From an uncultured Methanosphaera sp. (GTDB lineage Archaea > Methanobacteriota > Methanobacteria > Methanobacteriales > Methanobacteriaceae): 64,000 nt of DNA. Location of the stretch: contig CAMNFZ010000001.1 of the NCBI GenBank assembly GCA_946537725.1, positions 1-64,000 on the forward strand, in the 5' to 3' direction. Numbering within the stretch: the stretch's first letter is position 1; each line of letters starts with the position of its first letter. The notes below the pieces were generated by a model. The model worked only from the letters and a program-made list of their open reading frames with translations, was not told the DNA's origin and made no database searches. Of the stretch, positions 53,548 through 64,000 are shown in pieces. A program made the translations under genes and the position numbers.

Positions 53548-55041
53548 ATGAGTAGTTTTACAGAAAAATTAACTAAAGCAGAAGACACTTATACATTTGA
53601 TGATTTTCTTATTAAACCAGGATTATCAAGTATTGAACCGAAAGATGTAATATTAAATACTAAAGTATCTACCAACTATGATTTAAACATTCCAGTAATA
53701 AGTTCTGCAATGGATACAGTAACTGAATCCGATATGGCTATCTCCTTAGCTAGACAAGGTGGAATAGGTGTAATTCATCGTAATTTAACTATAGAACAAG
53801 AAGTAAAAGAAGTTAAAAAAGTAAAATACGCTAATGAATTAACAGTCAAAGAAGTTATAACAATCTCACCTAATGAAACTGTCTCAGATGCTCAAGAAAT
53901 AATGGATATGGAAGGAGTAAGTGGATTACCAGTAGTAGATGACAATAACATAGTTATAGGTATCATAAGTAGGAGAGATATTAAACCTTTACGTGGTAAA
54001 CGATTGAACACTAAAGTTCAAGATGCTATGACTCATAATGTTGTTACCATAACTGAAAACACTGATTTAGAAGTAGCATTAGATTTAGCATATGAAAATA
54101 AAGTAGAACGTCTTCCAGTAGTTTCCGATAATCAGGAATTAGTTGGAATAGTAACTATGAAAGATATTTTAGAACGTAAAAAATTTCCAAATGCAGTACG
54201 TGATAAAAATGGAAGATACTTAGTTGCCGCTGCATGTGGTCCTTTCGATATGGATAGGGCAATGGCATTAAGTGATGCAGGTGCAGATATTATTGCTATT
54301 GACAGTGCTCATGGTCATAAAACTGATATTATAGAATCAGTCAGGGAAATGAATAAAAATGTAGAATCTGATATATTATTAGGTAATATAGCTACTGCTA
54401 AAGCTGCTGAAGATATATTGAAAGCTGAAATAAATGGTATAAAAGTAGGTATAGGTCCAGGTTCAATATGTACTACTAGGATAGTTGCTGGTGTTGGAGT
54501 ACCTCAACTAAGTGCAGTAAGTAGTGTAGCTGATGTGGCTTTGGATTATGATGTTCCTGTTATTGCAGATGGAGGTTTACGTTATTCTGGTGATATAGCT
54601 AAAGCTTTGGCTGTTGGGGCTAATGTAGTTATGATTGGTAGTTTATTAGCAGGTACTACAGAATCTCCTGGTGAAATGACAATAAGAAATGGTCGTAAAT
54701 ATAAACAATACCGTGGTATGGGTTCATTAGGTGCTATGACAGGGGGAGTAGGTGCTGGAAAAGATAGGTATTTCCAAACTTCTGGTAGTAATATGAATTC
54801 AACAAAATTAGTTCCAGAGGGAATAGAAGGAGTAGTTCCTTATAAAGGGGAAGCTAGTCAAATAGTTTATCAATTGATGGGTGGATTAAAATCTTCTATG
54901 GGCTATGTTGGTGCATCTTCTATTAAAGAAATGCATGAAAAAGCTGAATTAGTTCATATTACACCTAATGGTATGTCTGAAAGTCATCCTCATGATATTA
55001 CCATAACTAACGAAAGTCCTAATTATCATCCACGAGATTAA
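53548..55041 (+). CDS. guaB: Inosine-5'-monophosphate dehydrogenase
   Basis: 497 residues. The active-site cysteine is in GPGSICTTRIVAG. Two CBS domains are inserted at about residues 100-215 (GLPVVDDNNIVIGIISRRDI and RLPVVSDNQELVGIVTMKDI). The C-terminal flap contains YKQYRGMGSLGAM. Rate-limiting step of GMP synthesis. GGGG precedes the ATG. Confidence 0.96.
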   Translation: MSSFTEKLTKAEDTYTFDDFLIKPGLSSIEPKDVILNTKVSTNYDLNIPVISSAMDTVTESDMAISLARQGGIGVIHRNLTIEQEVKEVKKVKYANELTVKEVITISPNETVSDAQEIMDMEGVSGLPVVDDNNIVIGIISRRDIKPLRGKRLNTKVQDAMTHNVVTITENTDLEVALDLAYENKVERLPVVSDNQELVGIVTMKDILERKKFPNAVRDKNGRYLVAAACGPFDMDRAMALSDAGADIIAIDSAHGHKTDIIESVREMNKNVESDILLGNIATAKAAEDILKAEINGIKVGIGPGSICTTRIVAGVGVPQLSAVSSVADVALDYDVPVIADGGLRYSGDIAKALAVGANVVMIGSLLAGTTESPGEMTIRNGRKYKQYRGMGSLGAMTGGVGAGKDRYFQTSGSNMNSTKLVPEGIEGVVPYKGEASQIVYQLMGGLKSSMGYVGASSIKEMHEKAELVHITPNGMSESHPHDITITNESPNYHPRD

Positions 55042-55069: not shown

Positions 55070-55963
55070 TTAAGATTTTAATTCTTTAATATCTTCAGGA
55101 TATTTTCCTAGTATACGTTCCATCATGGACATTTTTTTAATTTCTGCAAACATCACATTAAACTTTTTATTTTCATTTTGTACTTCGTTAAACTCTTCAT
55201 GTAGTTTATTTAAATTTTCTACAATATGTTTATAATCACTTCTGGCTGTTCTAGTATCTTTTTGTTGTTGTTTTAGTTCATCTGTTAATGTTTTTAATGA
55301 TTCATTTAAAACAGTATTATCACTTTTTAAATTATCGTATAATTCTTCTAGATTATCATATTGTTTTTGAAGTAATGCTTTTTCTTTTTCGGGTACTTCT
55401 GAACTACCTTTTAATCTGATATTTTCTTCTGTTAACTGGTGGTTATCTTTTTCTAATAACTTATTCTGTTCTTTTAATGTTTGATTTTCTTTTTCTAGTT
55501 CGTTTATTTTTTTTATATTGGTTTGTAATTCTGTTCTAATATTTTCTGTTTCGGAAGTTTTGATTTTTAGATCAGTATTTTCTTGATTGAATTCTTCAAT
55601 TTTTTTTTCAGAGTTATTTAATTTGTTTTGTATATCAGAATTATTGGACTTTAGAATTTTGTTTTCATTATTTAATTGTGAAATATCATTATTTAACGTA
55701 TCTATGTCTTTTTCCAATTTTGAATTTTTTTCTTGTATATCTCGTAGTTCATTTTCAGTATTTTCTATCGTATTTTTATAATCAGATATTTCTTTTTTAA
55801 GTTTTTCATATTCTTCAATATCTACTAAGTTACCCTCATTATATGCTATTAAAATACTTTCTAATGCTTCTCCAATTTTTATTCCTTTTGTTTCTGCATT
55901 TTCTTTAAATTTGTGCCATACTTCAATATTTTTAATTCTTGCGGTAGCCTGGCCAGAAGTCAT
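55070..55963 (-). CDS. Ribbon-helix-helix plus long coiled-coil protein
   Basis: About 297 residues. The first 45 (QATARIKNIEVWHKFKENAE onward) read as a ribbon-helix-helix DNA-binding fold: a short strand, then two helices. Residues 55 to 270 are a near-continuous coiled coil rich in Glu, Asn, Lys and Leu. The family is not known to me. The ATG at 55963 follows GGTGA; a start at 55975 is inside that site. Its upstream side is the GTTAAC array (56001-56705), so it is the obvious candidate to bind it. Confidence 0.7.
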   Translation of the reverse strand: MTSGQATARIKNIEVWHKFKENAETKGIKIGEALESILIAYNEGNLVDIEEYEKLKKEISDYKNTIENTENELRDIQEKNSKLEKDIDTLNNDISQLNNENKILKSNNSDIQNKLNNSEKKIEEFNQENTDLKIKTSETENIRTELQTNIKKINELEKENQTLKEQNKLLEKDNHQLTEENIRLKGSSEVPEKEKALLQKQYDNLEELYDNLKSDNTVLNESLKTLTDELKQQQKDTRTARSDYKHIVENLNKLHEEFNEVQNENKKFNVMFAEIKKMSMMERILGKYPEDIKELKS

Positions 55964-56000
55964 AGTCTTCACCATAATAATATTTTATTCATAAAACAAG

Positions 56001-56705
56001 GTTAACAAAATGTTTTCATTTTGAAAAGTGGGAAATTTTATGTTAACACTATGTTAACAATTAATTAAGAGATAAAATATACTGATGTTAATTGTATCTG
56101 TGAATTCTTTATTTCATCCGTACTCAATCTAGTTATTTTTTCCAAATAATTATTTTTGTTAACATCATGTTAACATTTCTTTCTTGTTACACTATATGTT
56201 GGATGTACTATATATAGTTTGTTAACATTTGTTTTATTTTATTAACTAAAGTTAACATAAAATTATTTTATTAAAACATATTACTCTCTAATGTTTTCAA
56301 TAATTTTTATTGTTAACTTTTTGTTAACATTTCTTTTTTTCTAATATTTTATTTTCCTTTGAGTTGAATTTCAACTAATTCCATAATAAATTTTCAGGTT
56401 AACATTTTGTTAACATGTTTTTTCTTAATTAATATGTTTATTATTTATCTAATATTAATTTATGCTAAAAAAATGGATGATATTACAAAATAAAACATTT
56501 GTTAATTAAAAATAATGATTGTTAACTTTTTCTTTTTCTTGTTTTCATTAAAAATTAAAAGTTAACTTTTTGTTAATTTTTTTCATATATAGATATTTTA
56601 TAGTTAACATTTTTTTTAAGCCGTATAAAAAAAGTGGTAGTAAATAAAGATGATCTGATTTAAGGTTACATTAACGATGTTTTTATATGTTAACTTTTTG
56701 TTAAC
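56001..56705. repeat. GTTAAC array (centromere- or operator-like)
   Basis: Sixteen GTTAAC hexamers start at 56001, 56042, 56053, 56158, 56169, 56221, 56251, 56312, 56323, 56398, 56409, 56521, 56561, 56603, 56689 and 56700. Ten form five exact GTTAAC-N5-GTTAAC units (17 bp) at 56042, 56158, 56312, 56398 and 56689. Near-copies occur at 56561 (second half GTTAAT) and 56001 (second half GTTTTC). Offsets of 11 bp put both halves on one helical face. GTTAAC is itself a palindrome. Lies between the coiled-coil gene and the HD-hydrolase gene; no reading frame is present. Confidence 0.85.
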
Positions 56706-56730
56706 ATTACATTTTCATTCAAAAAAAAGG

Positions 56731-57900
56731 TTATTGAGGTAATGTTAAATAATCTTCTATTTTAATATTCATTGAAATAGCTTTTTCCTTATTTTCAGGT
56801 GACATAAACAATGCTAAATCTGCATAATTATACTGTGCTTTTTTCAATGAATCTATGATAGTAGATACCTCTGTTAATGGCTTAAGTCCATCATTAGTTT
56901 CTACAAGAACATTCATCTTTTTAAATGATAATTCTTCGGGTGTGTCTATGATAACTTCTTCGGGGTTTATATCTAATTTTTTAGCAATTGCTTCTTCTGC
57001 TTCGGTAATATATTTTTTATCCATTTCAACTATTGCAGATGGATCACTGAATTGTGCTAAATTAATTGTATCTGTTTTTTTATATAAATGTCTTGTATCT
57101 AAATTTTTCATAGTTTGTTCTGGTAACCCTTTAGTATTTCTTGTAATATTGATTAAATCCCCATCATCAAGATAACGTAATTCTTTTTCATTAACTATTC
57201 CTTCAGATAATAAATGGGATAATGAAACTCTGAACATACCATTTACTATTCTTGTTGTGTGATGTTGGTAAACTGTAGGGTACATAAAATATCGGGCAAG
57301 TAATGTTGATTCTGCAGCTTGAACACCTTTTGGGGTGAGAACTAAATTGTCCTCATTATAAGTTAAACTATAAATTAATCTTTCAGTATCTATAACTCCA
57401 TATGCTACTCCAGTATAATATGAATCTCGTGCAAGGTAATCCATTCTATCAACATCTAAGTCTCCAGAGATGATTTTACCAAATTTAGTTTTACCATCTA
57501 TAATACTATTTATTAATTTAACATCAAATCGTTCATCAACAATATCTGTTATATGTGAGTCTGCTATAATTTCTTTTGTAACAACTTCATGCTTATGGTT
57601 TAATGCTCTTTCAGATACATGTGAAAAGGGTGAATGACCTATATCATGTAATAAACCACATACTCTAAGTAATGATATTACTTCTTGATCTAATCCTAGT
57701 GTGTTCCCTACTTTGTTTGCTAGGAATAATGTACCTATTGAATGTTCAAAACGTGTATGATTAGCACCAGGATATACTAAGTTTGTGAATCCTAATTGTT
57801 TTATTCTTCTTAGTCTTTGCATTTCAACTGTATCAACAATTTTTAATTCAAAGTCAGTTAAATGCAAATCACCATGAATACTATCTCTAATAAATCCCAT
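56731..57900 (-). CDS. HD-domain phosphohydrolase (dNTPase-like)
   Basis: About 389 residues. The HD metal site is visible as RFEHSIGT, LLHDIGHSPFSH and SGDLDVDRMDYLARD, with the family opening IRDSIHGDLHL. Relatives hydrolyse dNTPs or other nucleotides; substrate is uncertain. ATG 57900 was chosen over TTG 57909. It follows nadM on the same strand after 17 bases, probably in one operon. Downstream of it lies the GTTAAC array. Confidence 0.87.
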   Translation of the reverse strand: MGFIRDSIHGDLHLTDFELKIVDTVEMQRLRRIKQLGFTNLVYPGANHTRFEHSIGTLFLANKVGNTLGLDQEVISLLRVCGLLHDIGHSPFSHVSERALNHKHEVVTKEIIADSHITDIVDERFDVKLINSIIDGKTKFGKIISGDLDVDRMDYLARDSYYTGVAYGVIDTERLIYSLTYNEDNLVLTPKGVQAAESTLLARYFMYPTVYQHHTTRIVNGMFRVSLSHLLSEGIVNEKELRYLDDGDLINITRNTKGLPEQTMKNLDTRHLYKKTDTINLAQFSDPSAIVEMDKKYITEAEEAIAKKLDINPEEVIIDTPEELSFKKMNVLVETNDGLKPLTEVSTIIDSLKKAQYNYADLALFMSPENKEKAISMNIKIEDYLTLPQ

Positions 57901-57917
57901 TTTAAACAACTCTTTTA

Positions 57918-62867: not shown

Positions 62868-63802
62868 GTTAATTCACCTATGAAAATAATTATAAGATTA
62901 TTGATTATATGTATTTAATCTATTATTAATACATTTTACTATATTATTAATAATTTTGTGTATTGTTAATATTAAATTATAATTTATTCTTATTTTATAG
63001 TGTTTGATATATATGTCTTTGTTAAGTTTATATTTTTTTTATTGTTTTTTGAATTATATTTTTTCATAATCTTTTTTTAGTTCGTTATATAAGGGTATAG
63101 CGAAGTATAAAAATTATGGAACTGAACTTGTATGTTTATATTTTTTTTCTTAAATATGATGAAATACAGATCATACTTATAAATTTTAAACAACATTAAT
63201 GCAGTAAAAATTACTTTATCCTTTAATTTTTTTATTAATAATCTTTATTTATTATTTGAAGTAATTTCATGGTATGGTCCAATAAATATTATTTAATGCT
63301 TTATTTTTACTGTTTTAATGTTTAAAAACATTGGTTTTTTAATTTATCCTATTTGTGCTTATAATTTTTGTATTATCTGTAAAAACTATTAATAACATAA
63401 TATTTTAACAAAAGAGGGTATATATTATTTCTAATTAACATTAAACAAATTAAATTTTTATATAATAACTAATTTTAACTATTTAATCAATTATTAAAAT
63501 GAGTAATATGGAAAATTTTCCAAATAATATATTATTTTAATGGAATTTATTCCAAAATTTTATCAATTTTTTCGTAATATTTTCCATAAATAATATGTTA
63601 TTTCTTAAATCTTATTTTATTCATATTTTTTTTGTGTAGTATGTTATATAATTTTAAGTAATGATAACTTTTTATATCTTACATTATATAATATCATATA
63701 CTAATATTTTATTTCATATATTACATAAAATATTTTTAAATTTTAATATTATTTACTGTACTACATAAATTTCGAAAAAAAGTTCTTTTGAAGGAGAATA
63801 AA
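62868..63802. other. Long gene-free region ahead of a truncated ATPase gene
   Basis: About 935 bases, extremely AT-rich, with no frame worth calling. The right part holds two TGGAA-N4-TTCCA palindromes (63509-63554, listed apart) and a half-site TTCCA at 63582. The ribosome-binding site AAGGAGA (63791-63797) belongs to the next gene. Nothing else is recognisable. Confidence 0.4.
63509..63554. promoter_or_regulatory. Paired TGGAA-N4-TTCCA palindromes
   Basis: TGGAAAATTTTCCA at 63509-63522 is a perfect 14-bp palindrome, and TGGAATTTATTCCA at 63541-63554 has the same arms. Start-to-start distance is 32 bp, three turns of helix. They may be operators for the ATPase gene 250 bases downstream or for an unseen transcript. 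Confidence 0.4.
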
Positions 63803-64000
63803 ATGTTAAAAAGGGAATATTATTTGAAAAAAATAAGGAATTTGATGGATACAAATGAAATAAAACTAATAACAGGTGTACGTCGTTCTGGAAAAACCTA
63901 TTTTCTTAAAGCTTTAATAGATGAATTAAAAAATAAGGGTATAAAAGATGAAAATATTTTATATTTATCATTTGAATCAGGAAAATATAGGAAAATACGG
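63803..64000 (+). CDS. ATPase N-terminal fragment (AAA/DUF4143-type)
   Basis: First 66 codons of a gene that runs off the window. Walker A is TGVRRSGKT, with LYLSFES following, as in archaeal and bacterial ATPases that carry a C-terminal DUF4143 domain. Such genes are common, often in multicopy families with no known role. AAGGAGA is 5 bases before the ATG. Confidence 0.75.
   Translation, partial: MLKREYYLKKIRNLMDTNEIKLITGVRRSGKTYFLKALIDELKNKGIKDENILYLSFESGKYRKIR

Follow-up and report, generated by a model that had tools for sequence, protein, structure and literature searches.

Among described DNA partition systems, those that come closest to the locus considered here are built around a single protein. 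In pSK1 Par and RocS a DNA-binding domain, a coiled coil and an amphipathic helix are combined in one polypeptide, and the RocS helix binds the membrane only after oligomerisation (PMC11500499). A second point of reference is ParR/parC, where a ribbon-helix-helix (RHH) protein occupies helically phased repeats and represses its own gene (PMC5016525). Motor-free partition by a single protein is unsettled even in bacteria (PMC11500499), and the centromeres of archaeal chromosomes and plasmids were an open question in a 2016 review (PMC5120986). Our literature search found nothing on Methanosphaera partition with ribbon-helix-helix proteins, and no partition study for these gut methanogens.

A phased palindrome array and the gene beside it

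The window, a stretch of 64,000 nucleotides from an uncultured Methanosphaera sp. (contig CAMNFZ010000001.1 of assembly GCA_946537725.1), carries 16 copies of GTTAAC across 705 bp between the start of an RHH gene and the 3′ end of an HD-phosphohydrolase gene. The features are as follows.

56001–56705, no strand: array of 16 GTTAAC palindromes with extended consensus TGTTAACA and a phase of ~10.4 bp; candidate centromere-like site and operator
56001–56006, no strand: single GTTAAC closest to the gene, overlapping the probable promoter region (promoter position presumed)
56042–56058, no strand: GTTAAC-N5-GTTAAC unit 1, exact sequence match
56158–56174, no strand: unit 2, exact sequence match
56312–56328, no strand: unit 3, exact sequence match
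56398–56414, no strand: unit 4, exact sequence match
56689–56705, no strand: unit 5, exact sequence match
55070–55963, minus strand: gene for a 297-aa protein with RHH domain, coiled coil and amphipathic tail, monocistronic as far as seen
55829–55951, minus strand: RHH domain, about residues 5–45, from profile A3 against the NikR and ParG RHH domains
55154–55816, minus strand: long coiled coil, about residues 50–270, where coiled-coil families are the sole matches
55073–55132, minus strand: conserved amphipathic C-terminal tail MSMMERILGKYPEDIKELKS, common to all paralogue groups
56731–57909, minus strand: HD-domain phosphohydrolase gene, conserved next to the array on the side away from the RHH gene; listed for context

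The five units account for ten of the 16 hexamers, and a recount bears out an earlier note on this DNA, which had described 16 hexamers in about 700 bases, ten of them in five units with an 11-bp offset. That note had also put the expected number well under one; when the 755-bp intergenic region is shuffled with its dinucleotides preserved, 0.31–0.33 are expected, an excess of about 50-fold, and the paired form appeared in none of 100 shuffles of the whole window. Outside the array the window has just eight more GTTAAC. A search of the organism's own assembly (1.2 Mb, 69 contigs, 73% complete), which the note had suggested as a check against random scatter, returned five GTTAAC-N5-GTTAAC pairs in total, all of them in the array. 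The array region has a G+C content of 19% and holds no ORF of 50 or more amino acids; it has no match in Rfam, so that reading it as an RNA element was dropped. A scan of the region for sigma-70-type promoters was set aside as uninformative for an archaeon.

Spacings between neighbouring sites, those of 10–12 bp being left out of the test, are multiples of 10.3–10.4 bp. Across arrays the pooled R is 0.63, which none of 5000 jittered sets reached, a value that overstates independence because the genomes are related. Taken array by array, phasing is significant in the window's array (p = 0.02) and in the genomes G019 (p = 0.003), G009 (p = 0.002) and G007 (p < 0.0005), and is not significant in G010 (p = 0.22) and G015 (p = 0.13); four arrays from a sister clade give p values of 0.004, 0.009, <0.0005 and 0.08. 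Because the spacings fall on multiples of ~10.4 bp, the array sites lie on one face of the helix. The same-face placement proposed earlier for the 11-bp-offset halves extends to the single GTTAAC sites, which are in helical phase with the pairs.

The RHH gene is convergent with guaB, which ends at 55041. Its likely start is the ATG at 55963 rather than 55975, since GGTGA precedes the former and most orthologues start with MTSGQAT there; measured from this ATG, the nearest hexamer of the array begins 38 bp away, exactly as first noted. The description of the product as an RHH-like protein with a long coiled coil also stands. A profile of the N-terminal part, built from 23 members, finds the NikR RHH domain (2bj1 residues 5–54, E = 2.7e-4) and, as a weak second match, that of ParG (E = 0.16); an AlphaFold2 monomer model of this part, made from two sequences only, has helices and no strand at a pLDDT of 63. 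Beyond it lie the coiled-coil family matches, and residues ~212–287 are modelled as one confident unbroken helix. The last 20 residues are kept across paralogues as M-S-x-x-D/E-R-x-x-x-x-x-P-x-x-x-K-E-L, and in the model the coiled-coil helix runs on to the proline and is followed by a short helix. This tail is strongly amphipathic (mean moment 0.34–0.79 over 11 residues) and resembles MinD-like helices such as RocS and pSK1 Par are reported to have (PMC11500499). Pfam and NCBIfam gave no meaningful match for the RHH part or for the tail, and neither an ATPase nor a Rep-like domain was found in the protein.

Conservation, relatives and a plasmid copy

Twenty Methanosphaera genomes, MAGs or assemblies, were examined. 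An orthologue with 66–74% identity occurs in six genomes besides that of the window, GTTAAC-N5-GTTAAC lies upstream of it in all six, and the gene order guaB, RHH gene, array, HD gene, nucleotidyltransferase, cbiZ is the same; conservation of the array beside the same gene, the other check proposed at the outset, is therefore found. Individual sites turn over while totals stay at 15–19. The sites are 61–90% conserved, against 51–64% for the surrounding intergenic DNA, and each of the six arrays inspected has sites no more than some tens of bases away from the start codon. The sole further pairs in the genus are a single one in G005 and one apiece in G009 and G019, the latter two at ~3 kb from the array; the extra pair of G019 (L053:6638–6654) and G009 (L054:13824–13840) is at the cbiZ 3′ end and common to both.

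In a sister clade of four genomes (G002, G003, G004 and G016, the last of 1,767,403 bp, which we take to be M. stadtmanae DSM 3091) a homologue that resembles the window protein in its C-terminal part and has diverged at the N-terminus sits at a different chromosomal place, adjoining a DNA ligase-like gene with polymerase D genes near (gene names assigned by eye). It is again preceded by an array, which indicates that array and gene go together: 5–9 GTnnAC-N5-GTnnAC pairs in each genome, spread over 560–1200 bp, with half-sites that are mostly GTATAC, GTGTAC/GTACAC or GTAAAC/GTTTAC. Elsewhere, 400 kb sampled from the G016 chromosome held one such pair. The two clades share the outline of the half-site and the 11-bp offset and differ in the middle dinucleotide, and the RHH strand residues T-x-R-x-K, which by analogy with other RHH proteins would be expected to face the DNA, are identical in both.

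Measured clockwise from orc1/cdc6, these S1 arrays (S1 denotes the orthologues in the window's clade and the sister-clade homologues) lie at 18.3% of the chromosome in G016, 17.2% in G003 and 18.8% in G011, the last in a different gene context; with two independent placements, the similar position is suggestive. ParA-family matches fall at other places on the chromosome, and the strongest of them is close to oriC. In G016 a ParA gene ~20 kb from cdc6 (L200:3839–4934) has at its 3′ end a 109-aa gene with the ParB-like start LGRGLDALI, possibly a conventional chromosome segregation pair. Because a ParA gene and small partner are present near oriC, segregation of the chromosome need not depend on the array locus.

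A profile of the tail recovers a wider family, with one to six copies in 18 of the 20 Methanosphaera genomes and scattered relatives in three other genera. Some of the latter have by eye a different, AbrB-like N-terminus; the tail is perhaps a module that can be combined with various DNA-binding domains. We sort the RHH members into groups: S1a is that of the window and S1b that of the sister clade, S2 genes adjoin ferredoxin oxidoreductase-like genes, S3 takes in the plasmid and variable members, and S4 and S5 make up the rest. Strong arrays were found upstream of every S1 member and of the S4 member of G016, and in six S3 upstream regions; their enrichment, 8.9–24, is above that of 52 control upstream regions, where the highest value was 7.1 (a poly-C run) and the others were at most 5.4. 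Moderate arrays precede an AbrB-like member in G048 and one S2 member in G008. At S5 and the remaining S2 loci no array rose above the controls; the proposition that every paralogue has an array was dropped for this reason, and the array is not obligatory. Nor is the family essential to the genus, as the well-covered Methanosphaera genomes G001 and G013 have no member. Array sequences differ between paralogues, comprising CTTACC-N5 and GTTACC-N5 tandems, TGTAATATTT palindromes and TAAAACA at 10 bp, and within S3 the types are CTTACC, GTTACC/GGTAAC and GTAATATT. One peptide pattern searched against viral contigs gave no relative with the tail.

Several single loci deserve mention. In another Methanobacteriaceae genus, three genes (L141:2277–2966, L154:2361–3053 and L152:155–763) encode the tail motif SFIDRL.NR.PDE behind an AbrB-like N-terminus; upstream of one of them the DNA is rich in AACTCA (z 8.3). 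TGTAATATTT arrays accompany two S3 members (L060:7899–9275 in G017:C7 and L155:2521–3927 in G010:C66) whose neighbours are several other short RHH-like proteins that recur as a group, at L060 also with a restriction-modification-like gene; these surroundings are probably mobile elements. The (GTTACC-N5)n array at L149 (G006:C1) belongs to an S3-type gene whose neighbours are cbiZ and genes for an ABC transporter and a universal stress protein; this is near the S1a position in the window's genome. A degenerate tail relative with six internal stop codons at G016:C1:392918–393118 is a decayed family copy.

The S3 member of G011 is PXD04_RS23160, annotated as a hypothetical protein and carried by pNP174, a circular plasmid of 174,118 bp from Methanosphaera sp. 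ISO3-F5. It is preceded by 14 CTTACC-N5-CTTACC pairs, the sole such pairs in that genome, within an array of ~35 related hexamers mostly 11 bp apart. The plasmid carries MCM and primase genes, PXD04_RS23160 being ~10 kb from priS. A ParA-family search found no match on pNP174, and ten of its proteins, picked for size and lack of annotation, included no partition motor. A second contig of G003 was considered as another named plasmid and gave no match. At 63788–64000 the window itself holds the start of a gene, cut by the window end, for an ATPase that by eye is like AAA_14/DUF4143 proteins also present on pNP174.

Readings of the locus

The reading we favour, with slightly more belief than doubt, is that the array and the neighbouring protein form a compact single-protein partition or anchoring cassette, the array being the candidate cognate site of the protein. 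Partition leads because homologues with arrays of their own are found both on a naturally occurring plasmid and at several locations in chromosomes. RHH dimers would bind the TGTTAACA palindromes, with pairs 11 bp apart allowing two dimers to touch and so to cooperate, and the common phase would set at least 16 dimers on one face of the DNA, or wrap it. The coiled coils would then point away from the DNA, with the amphipathic C-terminal helices displayed as a cluster. This cluster may attach the locus multivalently to a structure of the cell, the membrane being the simplest choice and that of RocS, or to a host partner; membrane tethering is suggested by the composition of the tail and its resemblance to MinD-like helices. 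Since the RocS helix needs prior oligomerisation to reach the membrane, an array of many dimers would supply the multivalency. Sister loci might in this manner be held and separated without a dedicated motor NTPase, while occupied sites beside the start codon would repress the RHH gene. On pNP174 the relative and its own array would serve plasmid partition, and chromosomal copies could be domesticated anchoring or segregation sites. The earlier proposal of a possible partition site is thus supported in part: the array is conserved beside the gene and a plasmid relative has an array of its own, and partition itself is a prediction.

That the array is an autoregulatory operator and nothing else, with an RHH transcription factor tuning its own gene or a small regulon, appears unlikely to us. 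Repressors are common among RHH proteins, the array is always upstream of the gene and sites lie close to the start codon in every array inspected; however, 15–19 sites across 600–800 bp far exceed the needs of an operator, and the pairs have no other targets in the organism's own genome. A long coiled coil with a conserved amphipathic tail would be unusual in a repressor, and the gene–array unit is found on a plasmid as well as at several chromosomal places. The large operator envisaged earlier survives in part: self-repression probably accompanies whatever else the array does, while the number of sites and the plasmid occurrence speak against its being the whole function.

Less probable still is partition that depends on a motor, in which the tail, like the ParR tails that recruit ParM, would bring in a host motor encoded elsewhere, be it an actin-like protein or the ParA from near oriC. 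The combination of RHH protein, upstream array of 10–11 bp repeats and conserved tail mirrors ParR/parC (PMC5016525), and a ParA is available near oriC, but its gene already has a small partner gene and no motor gene is linked to any member inspected.

A replication origin, made up of iterons and served by an initiator of its own, seems to us very improbable. High A+T content and a likeness to iterons speak for it, as do replication genes near the relatives of the array, namely those for DNA ligase and polymerase D in the sister clade and priS on pNP174. GC skew and the distance from cdc6 nevertheless led us to reject an origin as the leading explanation: in G016 the sampled skew points to an origin by cdc6 (0 kb) and a terminus at ~0.7–1.0 Mb, and does not change sign around the array at 324 kb, and the cumulative skew of pNP174 has its minimum at ~160 kb and its maximum at ~60 kb, not at 118 kb. 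Nor could an ATPase or Rep-like domain be detected in the protein. Of the replication-linked element once suggested, the origin form is accordingly disfavoured; no orc1/cdc6 is adjacent to the array. A compositional accident or restriction-site effect can be dismissed, for although GTTAAC suits 80% A+T DNA and its palindrome could be a methylase target, the ~50-fold excess, the exact 11-bp pairing, the helical phasing and the conservation beside one gene in seven genomes refute it.

Beyond the single cassette, we tentatively propose a new family of motor-free archaeal centromeres on Methanosphaera plasmids and chromosomes, in which proteins of RHH, coiled coil and amphipathic tail, with exchangeable DNA-binding domains, would co-evolve with their arrays, and differing specificities would prevent interference between co-resident replicons.

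Comparison with known partition systems

SegAB is archaeal, as is this locus, and has an RHH binding protein with palindromes upstream of its own cassette (PMC12284271, PMC5120986). Here, in contrast, no segA neighbours the gene, the sites are gathered in one array where those of SegAB are scattered, and the profile search gave no SegB match. MatP/matS also pairs an RHH protein and coiled coil with palindromic sites that organise a chromosome region; matS sites are dispersed over the terminus, whereas the present locus is one dense cluster in mid-replichore. Like the centromere-binding proteins ParG and omega (type Ib), the window protein has an RHH domain, ParG being the second profile match, but those proteins are small and work with a linked ParA (ParF/delta), and no ParA is linked here.

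The likeness to ParR/parC (type II) is closer, consisting of the RHH protein, upstream repeats spaced 10–11 bp apart, an operator that here too would overlap the centromere and a conserved C-terminal tail (PMC5016525). It differs in that no ParM-like gene is found among the annotated or inspected neighbours, in the size of the window protein (297 aa, with its long coiled coil) and in having GTTAAC palindromes where ParR/parC has contiguous iterons. Iterons of 11 bp in tandem are, however, present in the pNP174 relative.

The nearest counterparts are pSK1 Par and pneumococcal RocS (type IV), the latter a membrane-anchored protein of chromosome segregation. As in these, a single gene is involved, with no linked NTPase in any inspected locus; an N-terminal DNA-binding domain, a coiled coil and a C-terminal amphipathic stretch follow in the same order; and there are repeated sites and both plasmid and chromosomal versions (PMC11500499, PMC5016525). 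The locus is, unlike them, archaeal and has ~16 phased palindromes. We prefer to regard it as an analogue rather than a member of this kind, as an RHH domain takes the place of the winged HTH and no DUF536 is among the Pfam matches listed. It looks like a motor-free device for DNA partition or anchoring of a make-up not described before, and such a cassette of one gene and one site, with several natural specificities, would be small enough to transplant. If the tail is a membrane anchor, the architecture of RocS and pSK1 Par would have evolved a second time, in another domain of life and around a DNA-binding domain of unrelated origin.
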